NCBI GenBank assembly: GCA_902786365.1
Contig: CADACD010000006.1
Coordinates: 1-64,000 of the forward strand
DNA: 64,000 nucleotides
Direction: 5' to 3'
Origin: an uncultured Lachnospiraceae bacterium
Lineage (GTDB): Bacteria; Bacillota; Clostridia; Lachnospirales; Lachnospiraceae
Part shown: in pieces, positions 2,028 to 19,935 of the stretch
Position numbering within the stretch: the first letter of the stretch is position 1
Layout of the letters: every line of letters begins with the position of its first letter
Notes under the pieces: generated by a model
Database searches by the model: none
The model's input: the letters and a program-made list of their open reading frames with translations, nothing else
Told to the model about the DNA's origin: nothing
Position numbers and translations under genes: made by a program

Positions 2028-2054
2028 ACATTACGGTCACATTACGACATTACG
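2028..2054. promoter_or_regulatory. Triple ACATTACG repeats upstream of the restriction operon promoter
   Basis: ACATTACG occurs at 2028-2035, 2039-2046 and 2047-2054, ending 13 bases before the -35 element of the promoter at 2068. The clustered direct repeats next to a promoter that drives a HTH protein gene suggest a regulator binding site, possibly for that protein itself. The assignment is inferred. Confidence 0.45.
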
Positions 2055-2067
2055 GATAAGTTTCTTG

Positions 2068-2096
2068 TTGATATTATTCCGATAATGGAATATAAT
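2068..2096 (+). promoter_or_regulatory. Sigma-A-type promoter of the restriction operon
   Basis: TTGATA (2068-2073), a 17-base spacer and TATAAT (2091-2096) form a near-consensus promoter. It ends 24 bases before the ATG at 2121 and so excludes the upstream in-frame ATG at 2085 as the start of the HTH gene. Confidence 0.65.
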
Positions 2097-2120
2097 ATTC
2101 TTATTATGGAGGTATCAAAT

Positions 2121-2303
2121 ATGGAGTATCTAACAGCAACAGAAGTATCAAAAAAATGGAATATTTCTTCCAGACGAATAGGTGTTTTATGTACAGAAGG
2201 TAGAGTAGATGGAGCTGTGAAAAAAGGTAAAATGTGGTTAATACCTGATGATGCAAAAAAACCAGCTGATGCACGTTTTAAAAAGAATATAAATGTAGAA
2301 TAG
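2121..2303 (+). CDS. Small MerR/excisionase-type HTH DNA-binding protein
   Basis: This 60-residue protein reads MEYLTATEVSKKWNISSRR...GRVDGAVKKGKMWLIPDDAKKP, the classic HTH_17 layout: helix-turn-helix, then a small wing with a basic KKGKMW strand. The start at 2121 has GGAGG (2108-2112) at a spacing of 8; an earlier in-frame ATG at 2085 lies inside the promoter. The gene is 23 bases upstream of the helicase and is the first gene of the restriction operon. It probably autoregulates the operon, with the ACATTACG repeats as candidate sites, or it acts as a specificity cofactor. Regulation is the more conservative reading. Confidence 0.75.
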   Translation: MEYLTATEVSKKWNISSRRIGVLCTEGRVDGAVKKGKMWLIPDDAKKPADARFKKNINVE

Positions 2304-2326
2304 TATTATGGAAGGAGGTAGGAGAG

Positions 2327-5300
2327 TTGGAAATAATAAATAATGTCAACAGAACTCTTAAAGATGACTTGGCTTTAGAAATACATAGGGGTAGTAAAGT
2401 TTCTATAGCGGCAGCTTGCTTTTCGATTTATGCGTTTGAAGAGCTGAAAAAAGAGTTAGAGAATATTGATGAGTTACGTTTTATTTTCACATCGCCTACC
2501 TTTGTTGCTGAAAAAAACAAGAAAGAAAAAAGAGAGTTTTATATTCCTCGTCTTAATCGTGAACGCAGTTTGTATGGAACTGAGTTTGAAATTAAGCTCA
2601 GAAATGAAATGACACAAAAAGCAATAGCAAAAGAATGTGCGGACTGGATAAAAGAGAAGGTTACCTTCAAATCAAATATTAGCGATAAAACTATTCAAGG
2701 GCAACTGGTTGTTGATAATATCGGTTATACGCCAATAAACAATTTCACAACGGTTGAACTTGGTTGCGAAAAAGGAAATGTTATTTGTACTACAATTGTA
2801 AAAGACAGGTCGCTGGCTCAGACGCTTATAAGGGATTTCAATGAAATATGGAATGACAAAAAGGTGCTTCAGGAAGTGACTGATGAAGTAATTGAAAGCA
2901 TTACCGCGGCATACAATGAAAATTCTCCCGATTTTATCTATTTTGTTACTCTTTACAATATCTTCAATGAATTCCTTGAAGATGTGTCCGAAGATGTACT
3001 TCCCAACGAAGCAACCGGTTTTAAGGACAGCAAAATATGGAATATGCTGTATAACTTCCAAAAGGATGCGGCTCTCGCTATTATTAATAAACTTGAAAAA
3101 TACAATGGTTGTATTCTGGCAGATAGTGTTGGCTTGGGTAAAACATTTACGTCTTTATCTGTAATCAAATATTATGAGAACAGGAATAAGTCTGTACTTG
3201 TGTTATGCCCGAAAAAGCTGGCAAACAACTGGAATACATACAAAGACAACTATATTAACAACCCCATAGCTTCCGATCGTTTGCGTTATGATGTTCTGTA
3301 TCATACCGACCTTAACAGGACAAGAGGTACATCCAATGGCATAGATTTAAGCAGAATAAATTGGGGCAATTATGACCTTGTTGTAATTGATGAATCCCAC
3401 AATTTTAGAAATGGTGGGAAATTAGTTGAAAATCCTGATGAGGACAGTAAAGATAACCGTTATGTAACTTTGATGAAAAAAGTTATCCGAGCAGGTGTAA
3501 AAACCAAAGTCCTTATGCTTTCCGCTACTCCGGTAAATAACAAGTTTCTTGACTTGAAAAATCAGTTGGCTTTTTGCTACGAGGGGCATACGGATTTTAT
3601 CGACGATAAACTGAATACCAATCGTTCCATTGACGACATATTCAAAAACGCTCAGAGAGCTTTTAATACTTGGAGCAAATGGGAGCCGTGTGACAGAACA
3701 ACCGAAAACCTTCTGAAAATGCTTGACTTTGACTTTTTTGAAGTTTTGGACAGTGTAACGATTGCACGTTCAAGAAAGCATATTCAAAAATATTACGACA
3801 CAAGTGATGTAGGTACTTTTCCGACAAGACTACCGCCTATTTCTTTGCGTCCGCACCTTACAGACCTCAAAGAAGCTATTAACTATAATGAGATTTTTGA
3901 GCAGCTTATGCTCCTTACTCTGACGATTTATACTCCTACACACTATATCCTTCCGAGCAAGATGGAAAAATACGCAGAGCTTTACGGAGATAATAAAGTC
4001 AATGTAGGCTTTACGCAGGCTAACCGTGAGCAAGGTATTCGACGACTTACTGCAATTAATCTGATGAAGCGTATGGAAAGCTCAGTCTTTTCGTTTAATC
4101 TCACATTAAAGCGTATCAAGGAATTGATTGAAAGCACCATAGATACTATCGACCGCTTTGATAAACATTCAAGTGTAAACCTTGATTTGACAGATATTTC
4201 AAATGCGGACGAGTTTGATGATGAAGACCAGAACACAGACGACCTTTTCTCTCTCGGCAAAAAGGTAAAAATAGACCTTGCGGATATGGATTATGTGTCT
4301 TGGAGAGAAAGTCTTGCCAAAGACGCAGAAGTTCTCGAACTGTTGACACTTATGGTCGGCGATATAACTCCTGAACACGATTCAAAATTGCAAGAACTGT
4401 ATCGTGTTATAGATGATAAAATAGCTCATCCAATTAACGAGGGTAATAAGAAAATCATTATTTTTACCGCTTTTGCAGATACAGCAGGCTATCTTTATGA
4501 CAATGTCAGTAAGTATGTGAAATCAAAATATGGGCTTAATTCCGCTATGGTTTCAGGCTCCGTGGACGGTCGAACAACCTGCTCAAAACTGCGTGGAGAT
4601 TTGAATACTGTCCTTACTTGTTTCTCTCCGATTTCTAAGGATAGGGATTTATTTGCCGGTATTCCAAAAGAAGATATTGATATTTTGATTGCAACTGACT
4701 GTATTTCCGAAGGTCAGAATTTGCAGGACTGTGATTTCCTTATCAATTACGATATACATTGGAATCCGGTTCGCATTATTCAGCGTTTCGGTCGAATTGA
4801 CCGTATCGGCAGCAGAAACACAGTAATTCAGCTTGTAAACTTCTGGCCTGATGTAACACTTGATGATTATATCAATCTTAAAGCAAAAGTCGAAACAAGA
4901 ATGAAAATCGTTGATATGACCGCAACCGGCGATGACAACATTTTGAGTGACGAGGAAAAGACTGACCTCGAATACAGAAAAGCACAGCTTAAGAGATTGC
5001 AGGACGAAGTTGTTGATATTGAGGATATGACTACGGGTATTTCTATTATGGACTTGGGACTTAATGAGTTCAGACTTGATTTGCTGGAATATATAAAGAG
5101 CCACCCCGATATTGAAAAAGCACCTTTTGGACTTAATGCTGTTGTTCCGACTAATGAAGACGCACCGTCAGGCGTTATATTTGTTTTGAAAAACCGCTCT
5201 GACAGCGTGAATATTGACAATCAGAATAGGCTCCATCCGTTTTATATGGTGTATATAAGTAACGAGGGAGAAGTAATATGCGACCATCTTTCCCCAAAAC

Positions 5301-5566
5301 AAATGCTTGATAAAATGCGTTTTCTATGTAAGGGGAAAACTGAACCTATCCCAGAAGTTTATAAGCAATTCAATAAAGAAACTCGTGATGGTAGAGATAT
5401 GTCAAAGTTTTCTCATCTTCTTGGTGAAGCGATTGCTTCTATTATTGAGGTAAAAGACGAAAGTGATATTGACAGTTTCTTAGGTGGTGGACAGGTCAGT
5501 TTTTTGACAAATGAGATTAAAGGCTTAGATGACTTTGAACTTATTTGCTTCTTAGTCGTGAGATGA
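2327..5566 (+). CDS. Large SF2 (SNF2/RapA-like) helicase with PLD-like N-terminal region
   Basis: This 1079-residue protein starts at TTG with a GGAAGGAGGTAGGAG ribosome binding site. Residues 1 to about 230 resemble the phospholipase-D-like N-terminal module seen in helicases of this type, but I see no clear HxKxxxxD catalytic motif. Helicase motifs follow: Walker A GLGKT (269-273), DESH (355-358), LSATPV near 400, and motif VI QRFGRIDRIG (819-828), with a long helical insertion between the two RecA-like lobes. Such ATP-driven translocases or remodelers accompany some Type III restriction loci (family knowledge). It is followed after 10 bases by the DUF4391 gene and shares its operon with mod and res. 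A role in DNA surveillance or translocation is inferred. Confidence 0.85.
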   Translation: MEIINNVNRTLKDDLALEIHRGSKVSIAAACFSIYAFEELKKELENIDELRFIFTSPTFVAEKNKKEKREFYIPRLNRERSLYGTEFEIKLRNEMTQKAIAKECADWIKEKVTFKSNISDKTIQGQLVVDNIGYTPINNFTTVELGCEKGNVICTTIVKDRSLAQTLIRDFNEIWNDKKVLQEVTDEVIESITAAYNENSPDFIYFVTLYNIFNEFLEDVSEDVLPNEATGFKDSKIWNMLYNFQKDAALAIINKLEKYNGCILADSVGLGKTFTSLSVIKYYENRNKSVLVLCPKKLANNWNTYKDNYINNPIASDRLRYDVLYHTDLNRTRGTSNGIDLSRINWGNYDLVVIDESHNFRNGGKLVENPDEDSKDNRYVTLMKKVIRAGVKTKVLMLSATPVNNKFLDLKNQLAFCYEGHTDFIDDKLNTNRSIDDIFKNAQRAFNTWSKWEPCDRTTENLLKMLDFDFFEVLDSVTIARSRKHIQKYYDTSDVGTFPTRLPPISLRPHLTDLKEAINYNEIFEQLMLLTLTIYTPTHYILPSKMEKYAELYGDNKVNVGFTQANREQGIRRLTAINLMKRMESSVFSFNLTLKRIKELIESTIDTIDRFDKHSSVNLDLTDISNADEFDDEDQNTDDLFSLGKKVKIDLADMDYVSWRESLAKDAEVLELLTLMVGDITPEHDSKLQELYRVIDDKIAHPINEGNKKIIIFTAFADTAGYLYDNVSKYVKSKYGLNSAMVSGSVDGRTTCSKLRGDLNTVLTCFSPISKDRDLFAGIPKEDIDILIATDCISEGQNLQDCDFLINYDIHWNPVRIIQRFGRIDRIGSRNTVIQLVNFWPDVTLDDYINLKAKVETRMKIVDMTATGDDNILSDEEKTDLEYRKAQLKRLQDEVVDIEDMTTGISIMDLGLNEFRLDLLEYIKSHPDIEKAPFGLNAVVPTNEDAPSGVIFVLKNRSDSVNIDNQNRLHPFYMVYISNEGEVICDHLSPKQMLDKMRFLCKGKTEPIPEVYKQFNKETRDGRDMSKFSHLLGEAIASIIEVKDESDIDSFLGGGQVSFLTNEIKGLDDFELICFLVVR

Positions 5567-5576
5567 GGTGATTACA

Positions 5577-6173
5577 ATGCTCGGTTTACCGAAAACAACG
5601 GAAATGAGTAAACAGCTTCCAAAGAAAGCTATATATGCAAAGTTTCAAATGAATACGGCTGCAAAGGAAAAGATCGACGCAGATATTTCGAGAATTACTA
5701 TAGTGGGTGAGATAGCACCGAATAAGGTGAATATTCCTGCCGGAGATGAAGTTAAAAGCTTCTTTGTCTTGCTCGTTTCTCTTAAAAGAAAAGAGTTTGA
5801 TGAAAAAACGATTGCAACGCTATCAAAGCTTATTCCTCAGAACATTCTTTTTGTATTGGAGTACGGTAGCGAAAGCAAGCTTGCAATTTATCACACAAAA
5901 ATAATGCAGACAGCCTGGAAACCAACCGAGGAACAAAGAATAGAGCTTCAAGGATTAAATCTTGATAAGGTGTGGGAAAATTTGATAGTTGCTGTCGGCA
6001 GTGTTGATATAGAGCAAGGCAATACGCTTGATAAGCAGATAGAAATAAATGAGAGACGACATAAACTTGAAAAAGAGATAGCTCGACTTGAAAAACAGGC
6101 ACGAGCTGAAAAACAACCAAAAAAGAAATTTGAGCTTGCTGGAAAGATAAAAAAATTAAAACAAGAACTTTGA
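5577..6173 (+). CDS. DUF4391 family protein
   Basis: This protein of about 198 residues uses ATG at 5577 with GAGGTG at a spacing of 6; the GTG at 5568 is part of that ribosome binding site. The N-terminus MLGLPKTTEMSKQLPKKAIYAKF, the central FFVLLVSLKRKEFDE and the strand ILFVLEYGSESKLAIYHTK match my memory of DUF4391, an uncharacterised family found next to helicases and Type III methyltransferases. The last 50 residues are a highly charged coiled coil (HKLEKEIARLEKQARAEKQ). Its position between the helicase and the methyltransferase block suggests a structural or adaptor subunit; no enzymatic motif is visible. Confidence 0.75.
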   Translation: MLGLPKTTEMSKQLPKKAIYAKFQMNTAAKEKIDADISRITIVGEIAPNKVNIPAGDEVKSFFVLLVSLKRKEFDEKTIATLSKLIPQNILFVLEYGSESKLAIYHTKIMQTAWKPTEEQRIELQGLNLDKVWENLIVAVGSVDIEQGNTLDKQIEINERRHKLEKEIARLEKQARAEKQPKKKFELAGKIKKLKQEL

Positions 6174-6221
6174 CATAGTTTCCTTGTTATCTGAGTGAAT
6201 AGAATGAAATGGAGTGATAAA

Positions 6222-8036
6222 ATGCCATTGGATAATAAAGCGATAGAAACGCTATCTGTTAATGCTGTAAAAAACAGTATTGTAACATCAGAGTTTCTTG
6301 ACCAGTATATTGCAGATAATGATAAAGAACCTTCGTGGGACGGGTTTGTCTATATTTATGGAGATAAATCTAAGAAAAAAAGTAATCTAAAAGGAAGAAT
6401 GCCAGTACAAGTAAAAGGCACGGAATGCGATGATCATTCAAAAGAAACGATTTCTTTTTCGATGACAACAGTGGATTTAATTAATTATCTCTATGACGGA
6501 GGTTGTGTACTTTTTGTTGTATATTTAGGAAATTGCGGCATAACAAATAAGATTTATTATGCTGAACTTACTCCGGTCAAATTAAGACAATTATTAGAGG
6601 AAGCAAAAGAGCAGAACAATAAAACTGTTCACTTGAAAGAGTTCCCATCGGACAATAATAAGAAAGCTACAATTTTTCTTAATTGCTTACAGAATTGTCA
6701 AAAACAAGCAAGTTTTAAAGAGGGAAAATTGCTTAGCTTGGAAGAATTAGAAGAACAAGGTGTGTTGGAGAATATTGTAATACCAGTTTCTGCAGTTGGA
6801 ATTACGGATCCACAAATGGCACTGGTTAAAAATGAAGTATATCTCTATGCCAAAATTAAGGGGAGTTCAATTCCACAACCAGTTGATTTTATTCCTCAAG
6901 ATGTTCAGACAGAGCAGATTATAGATGCATTGGTTACTATTGATGATAAAGTTTTTTATACTAATTATCGCATTATTAAAAGTGCAAAAGAAATAATTGT
7001 TTGTTATGGTAATAGTCTTACAATTAGGTTTAACGAAAACAATCAACCCTGTAAAATGAATTATAAGAATTCTGATAGAATCCGTGTTCTTGCAAAAGAT
7101 CTTGATTTTATGCTTGCATATTTAAATAAAGGATATTTCAAGGTTAACGATATAAGAATCCCATTTGATTATGATGGAATGGATTCCTCAAATTTTGACA
7201 CAGAAGAAGAAAGAGAACACCTTGATTTTGCAAAGGATGTTGTTAGAGTTCTTAATATGTTGGGGTGCTCTGAGGATATTGACATCAAAGATATGGGCGA
7301 TGAAGATTGGAGAAATCTGCACCGTTTAGTAATAGCATTTTTAGAGAAAAAACCGGTAAAAGGATTAAAAGAAGATTTACCACCAGTTGTATGCATAAAT
7401 GTTGGCAAATTGAAATTTGCAATTTGTCTGAAACAATGCGAAGAAAAAGGCACATATGAAATGTATGATTTTTTCAAAACTGATTTGTCTGTTGCTTTTG
7501 AAGATAGAAATATTGTGGGGAAAATGCTTCCTATTTCGCAGTTTAGCATTTTACACGAAAAAGACTTTTTGACATTAAGTAATATTAATTTTGATGTTTT
7601 GCTTCACTCATTTCAGAAAGTAGAGCATCACTACGAAACATTTAACAGAGCAAATTGGTTCTTGCTTGATTTATTAAATGCTTATGATAAAGCAAAAGGC
7701 ACAAGAAAAGAAAAAATTTTGAAAGCCTGCAAGGATTTTAGTGAATGGATTTCAGAAGCACCTGAGGATGAGCTCGACTATCAAATAAAGACACTGAACA
7801 AACTTCAGACCATAAAAAGATGGCGAGATTTTAATATTGATGAAATTAGTGCTTTATATGCAATGGTTGAGAGCAAAGATACACGAGAAGATTGTGTTGT
7901 CGGAGCCTATTTGCTTTTAGGGATACCTCAAGCAGCAGAAATTCATTTTGCAAAACTATCTGAAGAAGAGCAGAAAAACTTCAAAGAATATCCAATATAT
8001 CATTTTTGGAAAGCGGAGGAAAAAGAAAATGGATAA
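6222..8036 (+). CDS. DUF4365-domain protein, candidate PD-(D/E)xK-type nuclease subunit
   Basis: The product has 604 residues. The ATG at 6222 has GGAGTG at a spacing of 7 and is preferred to GTG 6195 or ATG 6204. The N-terminal 170 residues look like DUF4365, with SWDGFVYIYGD followed by MPVQVKGTE. The D40...Q63-V-K65 arrangement is compatible with a nuclease-like core, although the usual E/D before xK is Q here, so catalysis is uncertain. The remaining roughly 430 residues have no recognised domain; the C-terminus is helical, and the phrase VVGAYLLLGIPQAAEIHFAKLSEEEQ looks TPR-like. Its stop overlaps the start of mod by 8 bases (ATGGATAA), so the two are translationally coupled. Confidence 0.65.
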   Translation: MPLDNKAIETLSVNAVKNSIVTSEFLDQYIADNDKEPSWDGFVYIYGDKSKKKSNLKGRMPVQVKGTECDDHSKETISFSMTTVDLINYLYDGGCVLFVVYLGNCGITNKIYYAELTPVKLRQLLEEAKEQNNKTVHLKEFPSDNNKKATIFLNCLQNCQKQASFKEGKLLSLEELEEQGVLENIVIPVSAVGITDPQMALVKNEVYLYAKIKGSSIPQPVDFIPQDVQTEQIIDALVTIDDKVFYTNYRIIKSAKEIIVCYGNSLTIRFNENNQPCKMNYKNSDRIRVLAKDLDFMLAYLNKGYFKVNDIRIPFDYDGMDSSNFDTEEEREHLDFAKDVVRVLNMLGCSEDIDIKDMGDEDWRNLHRLVIAFLEKKPVKGLKEDLPPVVCINVGKLKFAICLKQCEEKGTYEMYDFFKTDLSVAFEDRNIVGKMLPISQFSILHEKDFLTLSNINFDVLLHSFQKVEHHYETFNRANWFLLDLLNAYDKAKGTRKEKILKACKDFSEWISEAPEDELDYQIKTLNKLQTIKRWRDFNIDEISALYAMVESKDTREDCVVGAYLLLGIPQAAEIHFAKLSEEEQKNFKEYPIYHFWKAEEKENG

Positions 8037-9864
8037 ATTAAAAATGCAAACAGTTAATAAGGCTGATGAAAACTACAAGAAGTTAGCGGCGATGTTCCCT
8101 AATGCTGTTACAGAAACGATTGACGAAAACGGCGAGGTAGTTCGTGCCATTGATAAGGATGTGCTTATGCAGGAGATTTCCTGCAAAGTTGTTGACGGCA
8201 ATGAAGAACGCTATCAGTTTACTTGGCCTGACAAGAAAAAATCTGTGCTTCTTGCCAATGCACCTATAAATAAAACCCTCCGTCCTTGTAGGGAGGAAAG
8301 TGTTAATTTTGATAATACTGAAAATCTCTATATTGAGGGGGATAACCTTGAGGTTTTGAAACTGTTGCAGGAAACATATCTTGGAAAAATTAAAATGATT
8401 TATATAGACCCGCCATATAATACCGGGAGCGATTTTGTTTATGATGACGATTATTCACAAACTGAAGAAGATTATATATCTTATAGCGGACAAAAAACAG
8501 AAGATGGAGAAAGATTATTTCAAAATACAGAAACGAATGGAAGATTCCACACAGATTGGCTGAATATGATATATCCCCGAATTAAACTTGCGAAAGATTT
8601 GTTATCGGAAGATGGAGCCTTATTTATCAGTATTGACGATAATGAAGTAACAAATTTGACTAAGTTATGTGATGAAATATTTGGTGCAAATAGTAGAATT
8701 GCTTTGATATGCCATAAGTCACGAGCTTCGGTTTCCAATGATAAAATCATATCCCCAAATCACAATACAGTTTTATTCTATGCAAAAAGCAGAGCAGTTA
8801 TGGAAAGTCAACGCAAAATGATTGGACTTGACCCAGTATTAGAGGGATTTGATAATGATGATAATGATGGGAAAGGTGCATATAGATTAGTTCCAGTTGA
8901 TGGTCCAGGCGGTGCAAAAAAAGGTAATCCACATTATGAATTCTTAGGAATTGAAGGATACTGGCGTTTCTCGAAAGAGACTATGCAGCAGAAGTATGAT
9001 GACGGATTGGTAGTTCGTAAGGGCAATAGTCTTTACCAAAAGTATTTCAAAACGACAGCTGAGCAGACTCGAAGAACCGCAACCACTTGGTGGGATGACG
9101 CTGGACTAACTTCATCGGCAACTTCAAAATTGAAAAATCTTATGGGTGAAGCGACCTTTGATACGCCAAAACCACTGGAACTAATTGATAGAATGTTAAG
9201 AATGATTACTTTCTCTGATGAAGATTGCTTAATTATGGACTTCTTTTCTGGTTCTGCAACAACAGCTCACGCTGTAATGAATTATAATGCCGAAACTAAT
9301 GGAAGAAGAAAGTTCATAATGGTTCAGTTAAAAGAAGCAGTTAACGAAAAAAGCGAAGCTTTTCAAAATGGTTATCGAGATATTTGTGAGATTGGTAAAG
9401 AGCGTATTAGACGTGCTGCCAAGAAGATTGCCGAGGAAAATCCCGAAGCAAAATTTGACGGCGGCTTCCGTGTGCTGAAATGCGACAGTTCCAATATGAA
9501 AGATGTTTATTACAACCCAGCCGATTACGAGCCGTCTTTGTTCAATAAGCTTGAAGATAATATTAAAGAGGACAGAACTCCGGAGGATTTGTTGTTCCAA
9601 GTAATGCTTGATTTAGGTGTTCTGCTTTCAAGCAGAATAGAAGCAACAACCATTGCCGGCAAAAAAGTGTGGAGTGTAGAGGATAACTATTTGATTGCCT
9701 GCTTTGATGACAATGTTACCGAAGAAGTAATTACCGAAATTGCAAAGCAGAAACCGTATTACTTTGTAATGCGTGACAGCTCAATGGCAAACGATAGTGT
9801 TGCAACAAACTTTGAGCAGATTTTTGCTGCATACAGTCCTGACACAGTAAGGAAGGTGCTGTAA
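8029..9864 (+). CDS. mod: Type III DNA methyltransferase (Mod)
   Basis: This 611-residue adenine-specific methyltransferase starts at ATG 8029 with GGAGG at a spacing of 9; upstream in-frame codons belong to the preceding gene. LYIEGDNLEVLKLL leads into motif IV DPPY (D127-Y130, DPPYNTGSDF). SAM-binding motif I, FFSGSATTAHAV, lies near 405-416. Motif IV before motif I is the beta-class order of Type III Mod proteins. The target-recognition region lies between, roughly residues 230-370. It acts with Res to recognise and methylate an asymmetric site, which cannot be read from the sequence. The stop codon TAA overlaps the ATG of the next gene (TAATG). Confidence 0.93.
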   Translation: MDKLKMQTVNKADENYKKLAAMFPNAVTETIDENGEVVRAIDKDVLMQEISCKVVDGNEERYQFTWPDKKKSVLLANAPINKTLRPCREESVNFDNTENLYIEGDNLEVLKLLQETYLGKIKMIYIDPPYNTGSDFVYDDDYSQTEEDYISYSGQKTEDGERLFQNTETNGRFHTDWLNMIYPRIKLAKDLLSEDGALFISIDDNEVTNLTKLCDEIFGANSRIALICHKSRASVSNDKIISPNHNTVLFYAKSRAVMESQRKMIGLDPVLEGFDNDDNDGKGAYRLVPVDGPGGAKKGNPHYEFLGIEGYWRFSKETMQQKYDDGLVVRKGNSLYQKYFKTTAEQTRRTATTWWDDAGLTSSATSKLKNLMGEATFDTPKPLELIDRMLRMITFSDEDCLIMDFFSGSATTAHAVMNYNAETNGRRKFIMVQLKEAVNEKSEAFQNGYRDICEIGKERIRRAAKKIAEENPEAKFDGGFRVLKCDSSNMKDVYYNPADYEPSLFNKLEDNIKEDRTPEDLLFQVMLDLGVLLSSRIEATTIAGKKVWSVEDNYLIACFDDNVTEEVITEIAKQKPYYFVMRDSSMANDSVATNFEQIFAAYSPDTVRKVL

Positions 9865-10598
9865 TGGACGATACTCAAAAATTAATTAAAACATTGATAG
9901 AATCTGAATCTGATAAGCAACTTGGCATAGATGTTATTGTTGAGTATCTCTCAGATATTGATTTAAGAGTAAAAGACATAGAACAAAAGTGTGGAGAGAA
10001 GTTGAATTCTGTATATGACACAGACAATGTTACTGGAACATTCGTACCCGCCATAAATGGAAATCCATATTATATCTTAATAAAAGAAAACAGAGAACAC
10101 ATGTTGTATGTAATGACAGCATTCCACGAATATAGACATTTAATAGATTATGTTATATTTTTAAATTCTATTTTTGGTAATAATATAGAATCAATGAAGA
10201 ATAGTCCATTGAATGTTACTTTTAATGTTTATAGTGAATATGCTGCAACAATGTTTGGAGTTCAAAAATATATTCAAATAGTTAAAATTGATGATATGGA
10301 CCAAAAGGATTTGGCAAAAATGATTTTACAAAACGCAAGGTCAGTATATAAAAATTTTCAAGGCATAAAAACAAGATATCAGTTACTTGTGCACAGTATG
10401 CAGTATATCGGAAATGTTGTTGCTTGCGGTAAATTTATTGATGATATAGATATTCAAAGACTGATTAGTGAAATGGAATTGTCAGATGAGTTATATCCTG
10501 TGTTCACTCATGCTTTTATGTTTGAAAATAAATATGAATGGTATTCAGATATGGATAAAATAATGCGTATCTTTGTAAATGGAGGTGATGTTCAGTGA
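9864..10598 (+). CDS. HExxH-motif protein (putative metallopeptidase) inside the restriction operon
   Basis: The product has 244 residues, is mostly alpha-helical and has no signal peptide. The segment MTAFHEYRHLIDYVIFLN contains H88-E-Y-R-H92, an HExxH zinc-binding signature on a hydrophobic helix. A likely third ligand could be a Glu in VYSEYAATMFG about 35 residues downstream, an arrangement like ImmA/IrrE-type or gluzincin peptidases. I do not recognise the rest. It overlaps mod by 1 base and res by 4 bases (GTGA), so it is co-translated with both restriction subunits. A proteolytic control or effector role is inference; a non-catalytic role is possible. Confidence 0.6.
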   Translation: MDDTQKLIKTLIESESDKQLGIDVIVEYLSDIDLRVKDIEQKCGEKLNSVYDTDNVTGTFVPAINGNPYYILIKENREHMLYVMTAFHEYRHLIDYVIFLNSIFGNNIESMKNSPLNVTFNVYSEYAATMFGVQKYIQIVKIDDMDQKDLAKMILQNARSVYKNFQGIKTRYQLLVHSMQYIGNVVACGKFIDDIDIQRLISEMELSDELYPVFTHAFMFENKYEWYSDMDKIMRIFVNGGDVQ

Positions 10599-13500
10599 AA
10601 TTTAATTTTAAGATACAACAATATCAAACGGACGCAGTTGATGCAGTTGTAAAAGTCTTTAACGGACAAGGCTTTCACAACAAAGTTAGTTTCATTCGTG
10701 ACCTGGGTAAAATGAAGTCTGATGATATGCAGATAACTTTAGGTTTGACAGATGAAGAAATAGAGCTGTACGACCCGACTAATGATATTGGATATAAGAA
10801 TGAACTGGTGGAGCTTTCCGATGAACAGCTTCTGAAAAACATTCAGACTTTACAAAGTCAGAATAATATAAAAATATCGCCTTCTCTTGTGAAAGACTTA
10901 GGGCGTTGCAGCCTTGATATTGAAATGGAAACCGGTACAGGTAAAACCTATGTGTATATCAAGACAATGTTTGAACTTAACAAAAAATACGGCTGGAGTA
11001 AGTTCATAGTTGTTGTGCCGAGTATTGCTATCCGTGAGGGCGTTAAGAAGTCCTTTGAAATCACCGCTGACCACTTTATGGAGCATTACGGCAAAAAGGC
11101 TCGTTTCTTTATTTACAACAGTGCTAGCCTAAATCAGCTTGACAACTTCTCATCAAGCTCCGGTATCAATGTAATGATAATAAACACCCAGGCCTTCGCT
11201 TCTTCTCTGAAAGAGGACGGAAAAAGCAAGGAAGCCCGTATTATTTACTCAAAGCGTGATGAGTTCGGTTCCCGCCGCCCGATTGATGTTATCAAGGCTA
11301 ACAGACCGATAATCATTTTGGACGAGCCGCAGAAAATGGGTGGAGATGTTACACAAAAAGCTTTGAAAAACTTCAATCCGCTTTTCAGCTTGAACTACTC
11401 GGCAACCCACGCAAAGCAGCACAATCTTATCTATGTGCTGGATGCTTTGGACGCATTTAATAAAAAGCTGGTTAAGAAAATTGAAGTAAAAGGTTTTGAG
11501 GTTAAGAATTTCAGAGGTACGGATAGTTTTATGTACCTTGAGCAGATTGTGCTTTCAAGTAAGAAGCCGCCTATGGCAAAAATCGAACTTGAAATCGGAT
11601 ATAACAAATCTATAAACCGTGAAACACGTATTCTTGGCGTGGCCGATGATTTATATTATGTTTCTCAGGAAATGGAGCAGTACAAGGGTTATACCATATC
11701 CGAGATTGACCCGCTTCGCGGAACAGTGACCTTCACAAACGGAGAGGTAATCAAAGCCGGCGATGTTGTAGGCGATGTTTCTGAGAAGGATATGCGCCGT
11801 ATTCAGATTAGGGAGACTATCCTTTCTCATTTTGAAAAAGAAGAAAAGCTCTTTAATATGGGTATCAAGTGCCTGTCTTTGTTCTTTATTGACGAGGTTG
11901 CAAAATATCGTCAGTATGACGAGAACGGCGATGAAGTGCTTGGCGAGTACGGCGTAATGTTTGAGCAGGAATATACCAACGTACTAAATGAGTATATTAA
12001 TCTGTTTGATACACCATATCAGAAATATTTGAAATCCACTTGCAGTGATGTGAGTGCAGTACATAAGGGATATTTCAGTATTGATAAAAAGACGGGCAGA
12101 AGCGTTGACAGCCAGTTGAAGCGTGGCAGCGAATTTTCTGATGATATTTCTGCCTATGACCTTATTTTGAAAAACAAAGAACGTTTATTATCCTTTGACG
12201 AGCCGACAAGATTTATTTTTTCCCATTCTGCTCTCCGCGAGGGTTGGGATAATCCTAATGTATTTCAGATTTGTACACTGAAACATTCCGACAGCAACAC
12301 GACGAAACGCCAGGAGGTTGGTCGAGGACTTCGATTGTGCGTAAATCAGAGCGGTAACCGTATGGATGTGGATAGTTGTGGAGAAACTGTACATGATGTC
12401 AACACACTTACAGTTATTGCCAGTGAAAGCTATAGTAGTTTTGTTGCGGATTTGCAGTCAGATATCAAGACCGTTTTATATGACAGACCAACTGTTGCGA
12501 CAAATGAATATTTTAAAGGCAAGTATGTTAAGGTGGATGGTGTGCCTACTCTTATTGATGACGAAACTGCCAATGCCATTGAATTCTATCTTATTCAGAA
12601 TGGCTACGTTGATATGAAACGCAAGGTGACTGATAAATACAGACAGGAAGTAAAGAGTGGTATGGTTGCTGAGCTTCCTGATGAACTGAAACCAATGGCA
12701 GAGGGTATCCATATGCTTATTCAGTCTGTTTATGACGATAGTATTCTTGAAAATATGTTTACTGACGGACATGAAACTAAGGTTAAGGCAAATCCTCTCA
12801 ACGAGAATTTTGCTAAAAAGGAATTTCAGGCTTTATGGCGTGAGATTAACCATAAGTATGCCTATACAGTTGAATTTGACAGTGATGAGCTGATTAAAAA
12901 ATCAATTGAACATATTAATGAGAAACTTTTTGTTTCAGAACTGCAATACACAACTACTGTAGGCAGTCAGAAATCGGTTATGAATGAGTATGAACTTGAA
13001 AGAGGAGATTCTTTTGTCAGGGAAACATCAGGTACACATACATTAAAACATCGAGAAACAAGTCAGATAAAGTACGATCTTATTGGAAAAGTTGCAGAGG
13101 GAACCATTCTTACACGAAGGACGGTATCAGCAATTTTACAGGGTATAAGATTAGACAAGCTATATATGTTTAGCAATAATCCGGAGGAATTTATTTCAAA
13201 AGTTATCCGCCTTATTAACGAGCAGAAAGCTACCATGATAGTTGAACATATCTCATATGATACTATTGAAGGAGAATACGATAGTACTATTTTTACTGCC
13301 GAGAAAAACACCCAGAGTTTTGATAAGGCATTTCTTGCAAAGAAAGCTATTCAGGACTATATATTTACTGACGGTACTGCCGAAAAGAGTATTGAGAGAA
13401 AATTCGCAGAGGATTTGGATGCTGCAGAAGAAGTATGTGTATACGCAAAGCTCCCGAGAACATTCCATATTCCTACTCCTGTGGGTAATTACTCTCCGGA

Positions 13501-13711
13501 TTGGGCAATTGCTTTTTATGAAGGAAAAGTAAAACATATTTTCTTTGTCGCTGAAACTAAAGGTACTATGGAAAGCCTGAATCTAAGACCAATTGAACAG
13601 GCAAAGATTTCGTGTGCAAAGAAACTTTTTAATGAAATGTCAACGAGTAAGGTAAAATATCACGATGTTAATAGCTATCAGAAATTGTTGGAAATTATGG
13701 ATTCATTATAA
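10595..13711 (+). CDS. res: Type III restriction endonuclease subunit (Res)
   Basis: This 1038-residue protein has a GTG start overlapping the previous stop (GTGA). Its helicase motifs are Walker A TGTGKT (113-118), motif II DEPQ (243-246), motif V region SHSALREGWDNPNVFQ, and motif VI QEVGRGLRL (573-581). The C-terminal nuclease domain has SPDWA (D969) and ETK (E987-K989), the intact PD-(D/E)xK signature of Type III Res. The length is normal for the family. With Mod it would cut DNA after ATP-dependent communication between two unmodified head-to-head sites (family knowledge). It is the last gene of the operon; a hairpin follows 8 bases after the stop. Confidence 0.93.
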   Translation: MKFNFKIQQYQTDAVDAVVKVFNGQGFHNKVSFIRDLGKMKSDDMQITLGLTDEEIELYDPTNDIGYKNELVELSDEQLLKNIQTLQSQNNIKISPSLVKDLGRCSLDIEMETGTGKTYVYIKTMFELNKKYGWSKFIVVVPSIAIREGVKKSFEITADHFMEHYGKKARFFIYNSASLNQLDNFSSSSGINVMIINTQAFASSLKEDGKSKEARIIYSKRDEFGSRRPIDVIKANRPIIILDEPQKMGGDVTQKALKNFNPLFSLNYSATHAKQHNLIYVLDALDAFNKKLVKKIEVKGFEVKNFRGTDSFMYLEQIVLSSKKPPMAKIELEIGYNKSINRETRILGVADDLYYVSQEMEQYKGYTISEIDPLRGTVTFTNGEVIKAGDVVGDVSEKDMRRIQIRETILSHFEKEEKLFNMGIKCLSLFFIDEVAKYRQYDENGDEVLGEYGVMFEQEYTNVLNEYINLFDTPYQKYLKSTCSDVSAVHKGYFSIDKKTGRSVDSQLKRGSEFSDDISAYDLILKNKERLLSFDEPTRFIFSHSALREGWDNPNVFQICTLKHSDSNTTKRQEVGRGLRLCVNQSGNRMDVDSCGETVHDVNTLTVIASESYSSFVADLQSDIKTVLYDRPTVATNEYFKGKYVKVDGVPTLIDDETANAIEFYLIQNGYVDMKRKVTDKYRQEVKSGMVAELPDELKPMAEGIHMLIQSVYDDSILENMFTDGHETKVKANPLNENFAKKEFQALWREINHKYAYTVEFDSDELIKKSIEHINEKLFVSELQYTTTVGSQKSVMNEYELERGDSFVRETSGTHTLKHRETSQIKYDLIGKVAEGTILTRRTVSAILQGIRLDKLYMFSNNPEEFISKVIRLINEQKATMIVEHISYDTIEGEYDSTIFTAEKNTQSFDKAFLAKKAIQDYIFTDGTAEKSIERKFAEDLDAAEEVCVYAKLPRTFHIPTPVGNYSPDWAIAFYEGKVKHIFFVAETKGTMESLNLRPIEQAKISCAKKLFNEMSTSKVKYHDVNSYQKLLEIMDSL

Positions 13712-13718
13712 AAAATGT

Positions 13719-13743
13719 TTGAGGTCGCAAATCGCGACCTCAA
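13719..13743. terminator. Hairpin at the end of the restriction operon
   Basis: TTGAGGTCGC (13719-13728) pairs perfectly with GCGACCTCAA (13734-13743) around a 5-nt loop. On the + strand the stem is followed by A residues rather than Ts; on the - strand it is followed by ACATTTTTTAT. It is probably a terminator or 3'-end stabiliser, with the T-run favouring the - strand. Confidence 0.6.
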
Positions 13744-13806
13744 AAAAACGTACTATGAATAGATTTTGGCATATTAATATATTTTCTTTTACTAGGAGGT
13801 CTTGAT

Positions 13807-14778
13807 ATGAACAGAAATATTTGGCTTGACGGTATGATGGGACTAATTGTAGGGGACGCTTTAGGTGTTCCGGTGCAGTTTATGGAGAAAGAAGAAATTA
13901 TCACAAGGAAAGTCGGACAAGTAAAGGGCATGGAATCCGGTGGTGCATATAATATGCCGGCAGGTACATGGTCGGACGATGGAAGTATGGCACTTGCTAC
14001 TCTTGACAGTATTGTAAATAATAAGAAAATTGATTTGCAAGATATTATGGAATGCTTCTGTAAGTGGGAATTAGAAGGAAAATATACGCAGTATGGAGAA
14101 GCCTTCGATCAGGGAAATACCTGTACAGAAGCCATTTATCGTTATATAAAGGACAAGAATATTGATACCTGCGGATGCAAAGACGAAAATTCTAATGGTA
14201 ATGGTTCTTTAATGAGAATTCTCCCGGCATGTATTTTTTGTTCCTTAGATAAGGAGTTATCGGAAGAGGAAAAGATGGGACTTATTCATAAGGTGTCTGG
14301 ATTAACACATAATCATTTAAGAAGTAAAATGGCATGCGGATTATATTATGCAATGGTTGATACACTGCTTCGTAGGGAAGATAATTCATCATTAAAGGAT
14401 ATCTTACAAGCAGGTATAAATAAAGGACTAAAGTTTTATGGGAAGGATGCAAAGAATTATTATGAAATGGCGCATTTTACAAGATTGTTTTATCTGGATG
14501 AATTGAAAAGTCTTGATGAAAGTGAAATGAGAAGCGGTGGATATGTTATTGAGACAATAGAAGCAGCAGTTTGGGGACTGATAACAACAGATTCCCTAAA
14601 AGAGTGTATGCTGAGAATTGTAAATCTTGGACATGATACAGATACCGTGTCTGCAGTTGCTGGAGGCTTGGCTGGATTGTATTATGGTGTAGATGCAATA
14701 CCTGAAGATTGGTTGCAGGCTATAAAACAGAAAGAATATATTGAAAATATGTGTAAGAAAGCCAGCGAGTTTTATTAA
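13807..14778 (+). CDS. ADP-ribosylglycohydrolase family protein
   Basis: This 323-residue protein is close to the family's usual length. The N-terminus GLIVGDALGVPVQF, the metal-binding GTWSDDGSM (D57, D58), SNGNGSLMRILP and the C-terminal GHDTDTVSAVAGGLAGLYYG (D277, D279) are the hallmarks of DraG/ARH-type hydrolases. These enzymes remove ADP-ribose from proteins or other targets using two Mg ions. The ribosome binding site is AGGAGG at 13794-13799. It is a stand-alone gene downstream of the restriction operon, in an accessory region. Its substrate is unknown and no ADP-ribosyltransferase gene is visible nearby. A role in reversing toxin- or defence-related ADP-ribosylation is inference. Confidence 0.88.
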   Translation: MNRNIWLDGMMGLIVGDALGVPVQFMEKEEIITRKVGQVKGMESGGAYNMPAGTWSDDGSMALATLDSIVNNKKIDLQDIMECFCKWELEGKYTQYGEAFDQGNTCTEAIYRYIKDKNIDTCGCKDENSNGNGSLMRILPACIFCSLDKELSEEEKMGLIHKVSGLTHNHLRSKMACGLYYAMVDTLLRREDNSSLKDILQAGINKGLKFYGKDAKNYYEMAHFTRLFYLDELKSLDESEMRSGGYVIETIEAAVWGLITTDSLKECMLRIVNLGHDTDTVSAVAGGLAGLYYGVDAIPEDWLQAIKQKEYIENMCKKASEFY

Positions 14779-14806: not shown

Positions 14807-14998
14807 TCACCCATCCTCAAACACTTCCTCCACCGGCTTTTCAAGCTGCTTAGCAATCTTAAGTGCTAATATAAGAGAAGCGTCACGCTTACCAGTTTCG
14901 ATACGGCTGATGGTTCTGACGGTGCTGCCTACAGCATAGGCTAAGTCGGCTTGTTTTATTCCTTTTGATTTTCTAAGTTCTTTGACTTTGTTTTTCAT
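14807..14998 (-). CDS. Small XRE-family HTH regulator
   Basis: This 63-residue protein reads MKNKVKELRKSKGIKQADLAYAVGSTVRTISRIETGKRDAS, a complete lambda-repressor-like HTH with almost nothing else. GGAGGG precedes the start codon. It matches the short Cro/YozG-like regulators of mobile elements. It converges on the ADP-ribosylglycohydrolase gene and lies downstream of nothing on its own strand except the S24 repressor gene, which is upstream of it (start 15820). Confidence 0.85.
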   Translation of the reverse strand: MKNKVKELRKSKGIKQADLAYAVGSTVRTISRIETGKRDASLILALKIAKQLEKPVEEVFEDG

Positions 14999-15106
14999 AG
15001 AAACCCTCCATTCGTTAGCTTGATATGCACAAGTAGAAATAATTTATTTATCTGTATTGATTCATATTCAAATAATATCACACCACCAAGTCAAAATAGT
15101 GTAGGT

Positions 15107-15820
15107 CTACAATACTTTCCCAAGAACCATAAAATTGCTGTTTTCATTTATAGGGATTGGGTCATATTTCTTATTAAGTGAGATAAGGAAATGTCCATTA
15201 TCATCGTCCTGAAGTTTCTTAATATATACATTGTCATCAAGTGAAAATATTCCGATTTCTCCGTTGCTCAGATAATCCTGGGCGTGGACAAATACCTTCT
15301 GTTTATCTGTATAAACAGGTTCCATACTGTCACCGGTAATAGTAAGAGTGTAGTCAGCTCCTTCCGGAACTAAGTCAGCAGGGAAATCTAATTCTTCATA
15401 ATCGTCTCCGGCTAAGTAGTTACCAACACCGGCAGATACCAGGGTGTAATAAGATTTGAGTCTGATACTTTGTTTTCCGGTAAAAGGTATTACCTTTGAT
15501 TCACTCGGTATTACATATTTTTCGTTATCTAACAGAAGCTCAGCGTAGTCATTGAGCTTTTCTTTTCCTTTCTCATTAAGTCTGCCATACTTGTCTAATT
15601 CATTGAATCCAAAAAATTCCGAATAGATATCTTCAACCTTAAGTATCCGGCAGATATTTAAAAATATCTCAATACTAGGCTCGCTCTTTCCACATTCCCA
15701 GTTAGATATATTCTTATAGTTGATTTGAATTCCGTTTTCATTCAGTAATTTGGCTAAATCCTGCTGTAATAGTCCATTTTTCTTTCTGTATGTAGATAAA
15801 ATTTCTGGAATAGATTTCAT
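15107..15820 (-). CDS. XRE-S24 phage-type repressor (CI/LexA-like)
   Basis: This 237-residue protein has an N-terminal XRE domain (about 1-62) with a QQDLAKLL...YKNISNWECGKSEPS HTH. The C-terminal S24 self-cleavage domain has putative cleavage site A130-G131 (VSAGVGN), nucleophile S165 in TGDSMEP and general base K201 in VYIKKL. It is expected to bind operators as a dimer and self-cleave when RecA is activated, coupling the element to DNA damage. It is transcribed divergently from the Y-family polymerase gene. The shared intergenic region carries promoters in both directions and repeated TGAGACAAAT motifs that are candidate operators. Confidence 0.9.
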   Translation of the reverse strand: MKSIPEILSTYRKKNGLLQQDLAKLLNENGIQINYKNISNWECGKSEPSIEIFLNICRILKVEDIYSEFFGFNELDKYGRLNEKGKEKLNDYAELLLDNEKYVIPSESKVIPFTGKQSIRLKSYYTLVSAGVGNYLAGDDYEELDFPADLVPEGADYTLTITGDSMEPVYTDKQKVFVHAQDYLSNGEIGIFSLDDNVYIKKLQDDDNGHFLISLNKKYDPIPINENSNFMVLGKVL

Positions 15821-15879
15821 GGTTAATCGCCTCCCGTATTCTTATATTTGTCCTAAAAGTGTTCCATTCCTATATAGAG

Positions 15880-15908
15880 AGTATAATCCATCACAATTAT
15901 AAAATCAA
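15880..15908 (-). promoter_or_regulatory. Promoter of the S24 repressor gene
   Basis: Read on the - strand, TTGATT (15908-15903), a 17-base spacer and TATACT (15885-15880) lie about 60 bases upstream of the repressor start codon. Confidence 0.5.
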
Positions 15909-15934
15909 GAAGAATCGTAAAAAATATGATTTAG

Positions 15935-15979
15935 TAGACCAACTTGTCTATTGAAATCGTAAAAACAAGGATTTATAAT
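15935..15979 (+). promoter_or_regulatory. Promoter of the Y-family polymerase module with overlapping palindrome
   Basis: TTGAAA (15951-15956), a 17-base spacer and TATAAT (15974-15979) form a strong promoter. The palindrome TAGAC (15935-15939) / GTCTA (15946-15950) with a 6-base centre abuts the -35 box. Its half-site TAGACAAG resembles the TGAGACAAAT repeats found downstream, so it is a plausible operator for the divergent S24 repressor (inference). Confidence 0.6.
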
Positions 15980-15989
15980 CACCGTACAA

Positions 15990-16062
15990 GGAAATGAGAC
16001 AAATAGCAGTGAGACAAATATCATTTCCCTGTAAAAATTATCAGAATCGAGGTGAGACAAAT
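15990..16062 (+). promoter_or_regulatory. Three TGAGACAAAT repeats in the polymerase leader
   Basis: TGAGACAAAT is repeated at 15995-16004, 16010-16019 and 16053-16062. The first two copies are bracketed by the inverted repeat GGAAATGA (15990-15997) / TCATTTCC (16021-16028). The third copy overlaps the TTG start codon at 16062. The cluster lies just downstream of the -10 box at 15974 and may be operator half-sites or an RNA leader element. Confidence 0.5.
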
Positions 16063-17309
16063 TGAGTGAGCGAACAATACTCCACAGTGACTGTAATTGC
16101 TTCTATGCAAGCGTGGAGCAGCTTCATCATCCTGAACTGCGACAAAAACCCTTGGCAGTCGGAGGTGACCCGGAGGCAAGGCATGGAATAGTTCTTACTG
16201 CCAATTACATAGCTAAGAAGTTCGGTGTGAAAACTGGCATGGCATTATGGCAGGCGAAGCAGCTTTGTCCGGATATTGTATTTGTTCCACCGAGAATGGA
16301 TTTATATCTGAGATTTTCCCGCATGGCTCATGAGATATATAGCGAATATACGGATTTGTATGAGCCATATGGAATTGATGAGAACTGGCTTGATGTTTCA
16401 GCCAGTGCCACACTTAAAGGCGATGGACTTAAGATTGCCGAAGATATCAGCAGGCGTGTGAAGTCTGAACTGGGTATAACGGTAAGTATCGGAGTGTCAT
16501 TTAATAAGATATTTGCAAAGCTTGGTTCAGATTATAAGAAGCCGGATGCCATAACCACTATGTACAGAGATGAATTTAAGGAAAAAGCCTGGAAGCTTCC
16601 TGCATCAGATTTGTTATATGTGGGAAAGAGTACGGATAAGAAGTTAAGAAATCTTGGAATCAAAACTATAGGTGACATTGCAAATGCTGATGAAAAGGTA
16701 CTGCACAGTCATTTAGGCAAGATGGGAAGTATTCTTTGGGGCTTTGCCAATGGATATGATGATTCCCCGGTAAGGCTTGAACATACTCATGCACCGATTA
16801 AGTCCGCTGGCAACAGTACAACCACATTCAGGGATTTGGTAAATGATGAAGATGTGAAAATCGTAATATACATGTTATCTGAAAGTGTTGCAGCCAGACT
16901 TCGGGAAAACGGATTTCAGTGCCGAACTGTGGAAATAAGTGTGAGAGATAATGAATTGTTTTCATTTACAAGGCAGACAAAAATTGACCATGCCACGAAT
17001 ATCACAGGTGAGATTGCTGAAACTGCATTTGCACTGTTTAAGGGGAATTATAACTGGAGACAGCCCATAAGAAGTATTGGTGTCAGAGGTGCTGATTTGG
17101 TATCGGAAGGATATTATGACCAGCTGGATTTGTTTGGCAATGTTATTTTCAGGGAGAAATGCAAGAAGGTAGATATGGCGGTTGATGATATCCGGAGAAG
17201 ATTTGGATATCACAGCATACAAAGAGGTCTTATGTATAAAGATTTGGCATTGTCATCGTTGGATGCAAAGAGTGAACACACAGTTCACCCTCATGGATAT
17301 TTTGGATAA
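16062..17309 (+). CDS. Y-family DNA polymerase (DinB/UmuC-like)
   Basis: This 415-residue protein starts at TTG. The catalytic palm motifs are DCNCFYASVE (D10) and GIDENWLDVS (D106, E107); the thumb motif LPASDLLYVGKSTDKKLRNLGIKTIGDIA is a helix-hairpin-helix. The C-terminal little-finger domain extends to about 360. Full length is present. Y-family polymerases copy damaged templates with low fidelity. A motif resembling a beta-clamp ligand, YDQLDLFG, lies near the C-terminus. It is the first gene of a five-gene leftward-controlled module (LexA-like domain, three small proteins) and is transcribed divergently from the S24 repressor, which probably controls it in response to DNA damage. It is likely element-borne rather than the host's own polymerase IV. 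Confidence 0.92.
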   Translation: MSERTILHSDCNCFYASVEQLHHPELRQKPLAVGGDPEARHGIVLTANYIAKKFGVKTGMALWQAKQLCPDIVFVPPRMDLYLRFSRMAHEIYSEYTDLYEPYGIDENWLDVSASATLKGDGLKIAEDISRRVKSELGITVSIGVSFNKIFAKLGSDYKKPDAITTMYRDEFKEKAWKLPASDLLYVGKSTDKKLRNLGIKTIGDIANADEKVLHSHLGKMGSILWGFANGYDDSPVRLEHTHAPIKSAGNSTTTFRDLVNDEDVKIVIYMLSESVAARLRENGFQCRTVEISVRDNELFSFTRQTKIDHATNITGEIAETAFALFKGNYNWRQPIRSIGVRGADLVSEGYYDQLDLFGNVIFREKCKKVDMAVDDIRRRFGYHSIQRGLMYKDLALSSLDAKSEHTVHPHGYFG

Positions 17310-18853: not shown

Positions 18854-19675
18854 TTATATTTTTGCCAAAGATTTTACAAATGGTTTAAACATTTTCTTGT
18901 ATTTAGGACCAAGCTGTGCTCCATAGTGATCCTGAAGAAGTTTAAGAACATTTTTTGGATTGTTCTTATGTTTATATAGGAAGTTGATTAGTTCATCAGT
19001 TACTGGAGCACCAGCAACATCAGTGTATTTTCCAATGTATTGGCAAAGTACAGAAAAACACATTTTATTGTCCCAGTTGCGAGTAACTGCAACATAGTTG
19101 GTATTGGTCACTTCCCGATATATTTTTAAACCATTTGTATTTCCGAAAAAGTGAACCAGAAATAGATGTAAATATGAAGTATTGCTTTTAGGACAAGCAG
19201 CAATAATATCATCAATTACAGATTTTGGTTCATTACACACTTTTTCGTTTGTTGATGGTGCATCAGATAGAGAAGGCATTTCTATATCTGATGATACAGG
19301 AATAGTTGTTGTATCATTATTGCAATTGGCAGAGAAAATCCTGTGGATAGATATTCCCCTGTCTTCCCAGAAACGAATAACTGAATCAAATCCTGTATCT
19401 TTTGAAACAATATATATTTCGTGTTCAGGTTCCTTACAAAGCTGATAGCCAAGGTATGTTACTAGTTGAAAATCAAGAGCATTATTGCCTTCATAACAAA
19501 GAATAAACTCAAGATTTTTGTTGTTTGATAAAAGTTTTATTACATTTAAGTAAGACATACGTGGTGACTTTTCTGTGTAAAAAACAAGAAAGTGTGAATC
19601 TTCATCTGCTTCTGATAAAAGGGTTACCCACTCATCACCTACATTTTCACTGTCTACATAGTAATATTTGGACAT
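18854..19675 (-). CDS. NYN/PIN-like domain protein (putative RNase)
   Basis: The product is 273 residues when started at the ATG ending at 19675, which has a GATGAGG ribosome binding site; a longer frame upstream lacks one. It begins MSKYYYVDSENVGDEW, the D-x-EN-V motif of NYN-type PIN nucleases. Further acidic residues appear at SEADEDSHF and in IYIVSKDTGFDSVI, the last being the canonical SKDxxF/D strand. The C-terminal half (about 165-273) is a helical domain with no recognised identity (LHLFLVHFFGNTNGLKIY). NYN proteins are metal-dependent RNases in many defence and RNA-turnover systems (family knowledge). It is the only minus-strand gene of this part of the element and stands alone. Confidence 0.7.
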   Translation of the reverse strand: MSKYYYVDSENVGDEWVTLLSEADEDSHFLVFYTEKSPRMSYLNVIKLLSNNKNLEFILCYEGNNALDFQLVTYLGYQLCKEPEHEIYIVSKDTGFDSVIRFWEDRGISIHRIFSANCNNDTTTIPVSSDIEMPSLSDAPSTNEKVCNEPKSVIDDIIAACPKSNTSYLHLFLVHFFGNTNGLKIYREVTNTNYVAVTRNWDNKMCFSVLCQYIGKYTDVAGAPVTDELINFLYKHKNNPKNVLKLLQDHYGAQLGPKYKKMFKPFVKSLAKI

Positions 19676-19935
19676 ATATAACCTCATCAACCAGAACATA
19701 CTTATTATATCATATAAAGGAATCTGATGGTAATAAAATATATATTTATTATCTCTGATAAATTGTGAATACAATTCCTACTTATCCCCACGAACTATGA
19801 ATACGCTTCACTTCTGACATTTATCAAAATCTTTTATCATATAGTCATGGTTAAGCAATACAGCAAAACCCTAATGAGAAAAGCGGCGTGCACAAAGCTT
19901 TCCTAATATTAATTGAAAAAGGAAGGTAAAGCCAA

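Follow-up and report, generated by a model that had tools for sequence, protein, structure and literature searches.

What do additional genes contribute when they lie inside a Type III restriction-modification (R-M) operon? The usual picture of a Type III enzyme is a machine of two subunits, Mod and Res, and the question is raised here by an operon in a 64,000-nucleotide stretch of DNA (positions 1 to 64,000 of contig CADACD010000006.1, hereafter the window) from an uncultured Lachnospiraceae bacterium, in which mod and res are accompanied by five further genes. A preliminary description had taken all five extra genes as parts of a single expanded defense system. We consider it rather probable that the operon belongs instead to a widespread four-gene form of Type III R-M, made up of an Snf2-type helicase, a DUF4391 protein, Mod and Res, with slots between these core genes that hold cargo. 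A form that crosses phyla and carries two constant partners asks what a second motor adds.

The operon consists of seven open reading frames (ORFs), all on the plus strand. A small helix-turn-helix (HTH) regulator (2121..2303, the listed ORF beginning at 2085; Pfam HTH_17 E-value 7e-4, under the cut-off) is followed by the Snf2-type helicase, whose N-terminal PLD-like domain has no conserved HxK (2327..5566; SNF2-rel_dom and Helicase_C; motifs GLGKT, DESH, SAT and QRFGRIDR), and by the DUF4391 protein, an alpha/beta domain with a C-terminal helical hairpin (5568..6173; E-value 5e-37). Next come a DUF4365-like protein with a nuclease-like D49...QVK site (6195..8036; sub-threshold in Pfam) in the slot between DUF4391 and Mod, the Type III adenine methyltransferase Mod (8029..9864; N6_N4_Mtase 7e-33), a HEYRH protein that by eye resembles ImmA/IrrE-like metallopeptidases (9864..10598; no family match) in the slot between Mod and Res, and Res, the helicase and PD-(D/E)XK restriction subunit (10595..13711; ResIII 2e-15, RE_endonuc 3e-30). 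Starting Mod at 8029 (MDKLK...) gives overlaps of 8, 1 and 4 bases across the last four genes, which suggest that mod precedes res in one operon, with one gene between them.

Both enzymes have the hallmarks of Type III. Mod carries DPPY and the motif-I FxG-type site DFFSGS and is related to EcoP15I Mod, while Res, a superfamily 2 helicase with a C-terminal PD-(D/E)XK domain, carries TGTGKT, DEPQ, SAT, VGRGLR and a PD...ETK nuclease site and is related to EcoP15I Res. The two match the chains of the EcoP15I structure (4zcf) with motifs retained; the window operon differs in its two conserved front genes and its cargo slots. The seven-gene layout, the overlaps and the catalytic motifs were all found as they had been described, and the broader reading, a Type III pair with extra genes in a defense-type operon that include a further DNA motor and perhaps a second nuclease, held as far as sequence can tell.

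The four-gene core

A search with the helicase alignment against 84,980 species genomes gave at least 581 relatives, of which the best 80 loci were kept, the core genes being called with profiles of 11-15 core sequences. All four core genes are present in 60 of the 80, and in every one of these 60 they lie in the same order on one strand. The remaining 20 loci hold the helicase and DUF4391 (10), these two with Mod (7) or the helicase alone (3); since their sequence ends within 1.9 kb past the last core gene, they neither support nor contradict the pattern. Loci with a helicase relative occur in the Bacillota, Bacteroidota, Spirochaetota, Fibrobacterota, Lentisphaerota, Verrucomicrobiota and Pseudomonadota, and in one archaeal metagenome-assembled genome (MAG); many of these loci come from MAGs, where contigs can be misplaced.

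Within the window's own family, DUF4391 is found in 12 of 299 genomes, at 15 places. Besides the window, ten of these places hold four genes (the helicase of L050 being cut by the contig end), three reach contig ends, and in one (L056) the helicase and part of DUF4391 are gone, with an IS3-like gene adjoining as judged by eye. The helicase also matches 100 plasmid records, and ten plasmid loci that were opened, from Leuconostoc, Listeria, E. coli, Enterococcus, Lactococcus, two Aeromonas, Lactiplantibacillus, Enterobacter and Acinetobacter, all show the same order. The helicases of four of them are 41-43% identical to the query helicase, and the second gene of the Listeria locus is annotated merely as hypothetical. 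The four-gene form supplies a context for DUF4391. A minimal four-gene version is present on the E. coli plasmid p1919D62-2 (L156), which makes tests in laboratory strains simple.

Exchange of cargo between the core genes

Gaps between core genes mostly fall into two kinds, close to zero or filled. Among the 60 complete loci, gaps of at least 300 bp number 9 between helicase and DUF4391, 33 between DUF4391 and Mod and 30 between Mod and Res, while gaps of 51-299 bp number 4, 4 and 0, respectively. One slot is filled in 16 loci, two in 19, three in 6 and none in 19. Most filled slots (48 of 74) are filled to within 20 bp at both sides, and 88 of 89 slot ORFs lie on the operon strand, a figure somewhat inflated because the ORF picker favored the plus strand.

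The cargo is diverse. Across the 80 loci, gaps of 200 bp or more yielded 88 plus-strand ORFs of at least 88 amino acids, which fall into 12 groups and 52 singletons (blastp, E-value 1e-5). A family scan covered 79 of these together with the two cargo genes of the window, nine having been excluded by eye (a Res fragment, a RhuM fragment and doubtful ORFs). Among the 25 of 45 Pfam families listed for these 81 proteins are RhuM, Fic and SLFN_AlbA_2 (5 each), YhcG_C and Abi_C (4 each), DUF4365, 23S_rRNA_IVP and DUF2971 (3 each), AbiU2, HEPN, GmrSD_N and YoeB (1 each) and AAA families (1-2 each). The cargo matches 233 PADLOC models; each of the 25 models listed is matched by 5-6 proteins, and the RhuM and Fic groups therefore dominate that list. 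Ten cargo proteins from the window's own family, one of them encoded after Res, include a TIR_2 match below the cut-off, AbiJ_NTD4, YhcG, RhuM, two Schlafen-like proteins and three without a family. Two of the ten plasmid loci have annotated cargo, in one case an ATP-dependent endonuclease with DUF2130, in the other an ATP-binding-domain protein and an AAA ATPase with DUF4276. With 52 of 88 ORFs lacking a relative among the others, and with the HExxH protein of the window belonging to no family, the slots offer a ready list of candidate defense genes.

Cargo and specificity are swapped within a persisting frame, as is evident from close relatives that differ cleanly in slots and in mod. L095 and L105 align in four blocks of 76-81% DNA identity, but the DUF4391/Mod slot measures 1867 bp in L095, where it holds a DUF4365-like gene, against 71 bp in L105, and L095 has a further 1079 bp (a YhcG protein) where L105 has none. 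In L052, which is 80-88% identical to L095, a Schlafen-like gene replaces the DUF4365-like gene and the Mod/Res slot is empty; similarly, a gap of 174 bp in L070 corresponds in L071 to 937 bp that hold a 298-amino-acid ORF without a family. The flanks of L045 and L111 are 96% and 92% identical while most of mod and the preceding slot differ, and between L046 and L047 identity shifts from about 69% to 94% inside mod. L057, in which two Mods with different centers enclose a 5' fragment of Res, fits the same picture. The operon thus shows what embedded cargo should show: unrelated defense-type genes inside it, on the same strand, with filled and empty sites in relatives. Separately, we observed at least two methyltransferase genes within one operon in L057, L076, L110 and L158, and insertion sequences in two operons besides that of L056, IS21-like in the mod of L024 (by eye) and IS1-like between the mod and res of L162 (annotated).

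The window's own cargo bears on whether the five extra genes all cooperate with Mod and Res in one integrated seven-gene machine. The tight gene overlaps speak for such a machine, as does L024 (genome G174), from another family, where six of the seven genes stand in the same order, the HExxH gene being absent and an IS21-like insert lying in mod; in L095, too, the same slot holds a relative of the DUF4365-like protein. However, among the operon loci examined only L024 (33% identity) and L095 (53%) have such a relative in this slot, and most relatives stand alone or near other R-M genes. Near-full-length relatives of the 613-amino-acid protein follow a recombinase on C. difficile and Planococcus plasmids, and more lie beside DndB genes in Priestia, after an HsdR-like ORF (L028), after a DUF262-like ORF (L025) and near a C5-methyltransferase-like ORF (L027), these last three neighbors being judged by eye, or are without R-M neighbors. 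Loci with nearer helicases (L053, 81%; L057, 86%; L058, 79%) lack the DUF4365-like protein, and the cargo of L089 is a different DUF4365 protein. The HExxH protein, with HEYRH at residues 88-92 followed by SEYAATMFG, has no Pfam family; a single weak relative was found among 391 genomes, and none among 72,556 plasmids or in the other operon loci compared. Close relatives, moreover, hold other cargo. The integrated machine is thereby largely refuted and in our view highly improbable: the five extra genes do not form one unit. Judged by conservation beside mod and res, the yardstick that the preliminary description had set, two of the five pass (the helicase and DUF4391, constant with this form of Mod-Res), two fail (the exchangeable DUF4365-like and HExxH genes), and the regulator, variable in type and not present everywhere, is conserved at most in kind.

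The weak DUF4365 assignment (20.7 bits in the window, 22.3 in L095 and 19.2 in L024, against a cut-off of 24.3) is supported by the D...QVK site, which L095 and L024 share. A role as an activated nuclease is plausible by analogy, because the DUF4365 domain of a short-Argonaute system cleaves DNA nonspecifically once activated (PMC10810196). As a side observation, L021 (9676-9918) and L022 (9858-10112) hold remnants that match the DUF4365-like protein over its C-terminal 80 residues alone, at about 71% and 52% identity, respectively; they lie beside housekeeping genes, one of them adjoining an EF-Ts-like ORF.

The helicase-DUF4391 pair

A search from Res shows the front pair to be detachable. 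Res is found (E-value 1e-30 or better) in 26 of the 299 own-family genomes, and among the 16 of these without a DUF4391 match, nine carry Mod and Res but neither helicase nor DUF4391 within the stretch taken, one has Mod at the contig start and six have no complete pair. On a Res tree of 77 rows the nine pair-less loci need six state changes, at least five of them forced by starred branches, against a shuffled mean of 8.7 (one of 500 shuffles being as low); they are scattered yet somewhat clustered, and the pair therefore comes and goes. One pair-less Res (L137), 70% identical to that of the window, is placed inside a four-gene clade. Two-gene loci (L143, L147) also hold extra ORFs between Mod and Res, so that cargo is not tied to the pair.

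Such coming and going could mean that the pair is an independent defense system merely travelling with Mod-Res, the more so as in most family loci neither Mod nor DUF4391 is as well conserved as the helicase. Yet the pair always lies upstream of Mod, in a single order across phyla, and no examined locus has more than 1.9 kb of Mod-free sequence after it; such locus ends without Mod do not count against the link to Mod, because gaps of up to 3.3 kb occur. We regard independence as quite unlikely. The pair may, alternatively, be a regulator or safety device, controlling Res or aiding methylation upon entry into a new host, and not a means of attacking phage DNA. In its favor, the systems often reside on plasmids or mobile elements (100 records of plasmids; an integrase-like ORF at 20879-22105 in the window), and the PLD-like domain appears inactive, but the relatives DrmD and SauUSI belong to restriction systems, and we hold this alternative to be unlikely.

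In the four-gene reading that we prefer, Mod would pick the site and methylate host DNA and Res would be the nuclease, as in EcoP15I, while the Snf2 protein would act as an added ATP-driven motor or remodeller. Its N-terminus folds like a PLD nuclease in the structure model, with SauUSI (7clg) as best match; since the helicase alignments show no generally conserved HxK, this domain is probably no nuclease, leaving cutting to Res, and it may serve for DNA binding or dimerization. DUF4391, with its helical hairpin, may be an adaptor linking the motor to Mod and Res, and the first-gene HTH protein a repressor of the operon. Cargo proteins would be backup effectors that respond to triggers of their own or to a block of the core; the DUF4365-like protein would be an activated nuclease, and the HExxH protein a protease that may cut a repressor or an effector.

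Several points weigh against this reading. The presence of all four genes is partly definitional for the 60 complete loci, in which order and strand alone were tested, and because only the best 80 of at least 581 were kept, helicases that have diverged or stand alone could escape. Mod-Res does not require the front module, and cargo is dispensable, all slots being empty in 19 of the 60. The Res tree has long branches (L148, L144, L147, L143 and others). The model of the helicase N-terminus reaches medium confidence (predicted local distance difference test score 72), and HxK triplets do occur among helicases, but not generally: HSK just ahead of the first strand is common to three of 11 aligned sequences and HDK occurs later in two. 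DUF4391 gave no clear fold match in the structure comparison, which makes its adaptor role a guess. Finally, 25 of 71 loci with upstream sequence have no plus-strand ORF ending beside the helicase, so that a regulator is not general.

Classical Type III enzymes recognize an asymmetric site, methylate one strand and cleave from two sites in inverted orientation. A bolder version of the four-gene reading draws on the escape of a phage, T7, from EcoP15I through head-to-tail sites. Snf2-DUF4391 might be a second, truly translocating motor that removes the need for two inverted sites, such that single or head-to-tail sites would be restricted, with the slots holding fail-safe effectors wired to the state of the core. 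We offer this as a speculation that is more likely wrong than right by a wide measure.

Known systems, regulation and surroundings

The concept of embedded defense genes is reportedly set out in a 2024 preprint by Payne et al. SauUSI, a single ATP-dependent restriction endonuclease in which the PLD-like domain is followed by a helicase, shares that domain with the window helicase, whose HxK is not conserved and which is followed by Mod and Res. Whole-length, the best PADLOC match of the helicase is C3a139, 'HKD+Snf2' (E-value 2e-129), a name that presumably points to an accessory of cyclic-oligonucleotide-based antiphage signaling systems (CBASS); no CBASS protein is found among the PADLOC matches of the operon. 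DISARM (defense island system associated with restriction-modification), which joins DrmD with DrmA, DrmB and DrmC, was rejected, as the helicase is the sole Drm-matching protein among the matches listed and its DrmD score is 147 bits against an NCBI cut-off of 610.

Embedded effectors in R-M and bacteriophage exclusion (BREX)-type operons are already known (PMC12255303, PMC3710099, PMC12839542). DarTG2 is embedded in Type I R-M with a first-gene repressor, RptR (PMC12255303), and PrrC and HEPN proteins lie inside R-M operons (PMC3710099). The window resembles these in having unrelated defense genes inside the operon and a small regulator first, and differs in its Type III host operon, its three slots and its helicase-DUF4391 front module. 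The BREX-related Type-2 BR systems, with an HKD nuclease as main effector and a DUF499 ATPase as core, share an N-terminal HKD-type domain fused to a Swi2/Snf2 helicase, an N6 methyltransferase, a small extra conserved protein (there DUF3780) and backup effectors, whereas the window helicase lacks a conserved HxK, DUF499 is missing and Res serves as nuclease (PMC12839542). Membership was rejected, as DUF499 and DUF3780 are absent among the Pfam matches of ten scanned proteins; an active HKD nuclease was rejected on sequence grounds, there being no generally conserved HxK in a PLD-like fold. With short-Argonaute DUF4365-APAZ systems the window shares the DUF4365 nuclease domain (PMC10810196), and no Argonaute is found among the Pfam matches of the same ten proteins. 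In the literature searched, where DUF4391 occurs in one paper, we came upon no account of this form of Type III operon or of DUF4391 as a component, nor anything linking DUF4365 to Type III restriction, although a prior description may exist.

Where a small HTH or WYL regulator is found it is the first gene, its type varying among loci. The best sigma-70-like site in the window, TTGATA-17-TATAAT (2068..2096, plus strand), is a consensus match only and the only one of 11/12; promoter-like matches in the region are no commoner than in shuffles (50 against 45.7, standard deviation 6.8). An inverted repeat, TATTCC-N6-GGAATA (2075-2092), between and partly over both hexamers, may be an operator. 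Because the promoter-like site runs across the ATG given for the listed ORF (2085), the more likely start of the HTH gene is the ATG at 2121, which is preceded by ATGGAGG. The hairpin placed after the last gene is real (12 bp, 13718..13744), but the minus strand carries its T-run, the plus strand continuing with A's and then C.

Several neighbors of the operon were also noted. An ADP-ribosylglycohydrolase gene (13807-14778) lies on the same strand 95 bases past Res, and such a gene is upstream of the operon on an Aeromonas media plasmid (L154, 5381-6052). Taken with the SpoVG and DUF6674 genes that lie upstream of the operon, the tyrosine-integrase-like ORF (by eye) points to an integrative element that extends leftward past the start of the contig. 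By eye, an HTH ORF, an S24/LexA-like repressor ORF and a Y-family-polymerase-like ORF lie beside the operon (14807-17309), a minus-strand ORF (18854-19774) resembles PIN/NYN-type nucleases, and a run of glycosyltransferase, nucleotide-sugar and polysaccharide-export-like genes (32949-62251) is probably a surface polysaccharide cluster.

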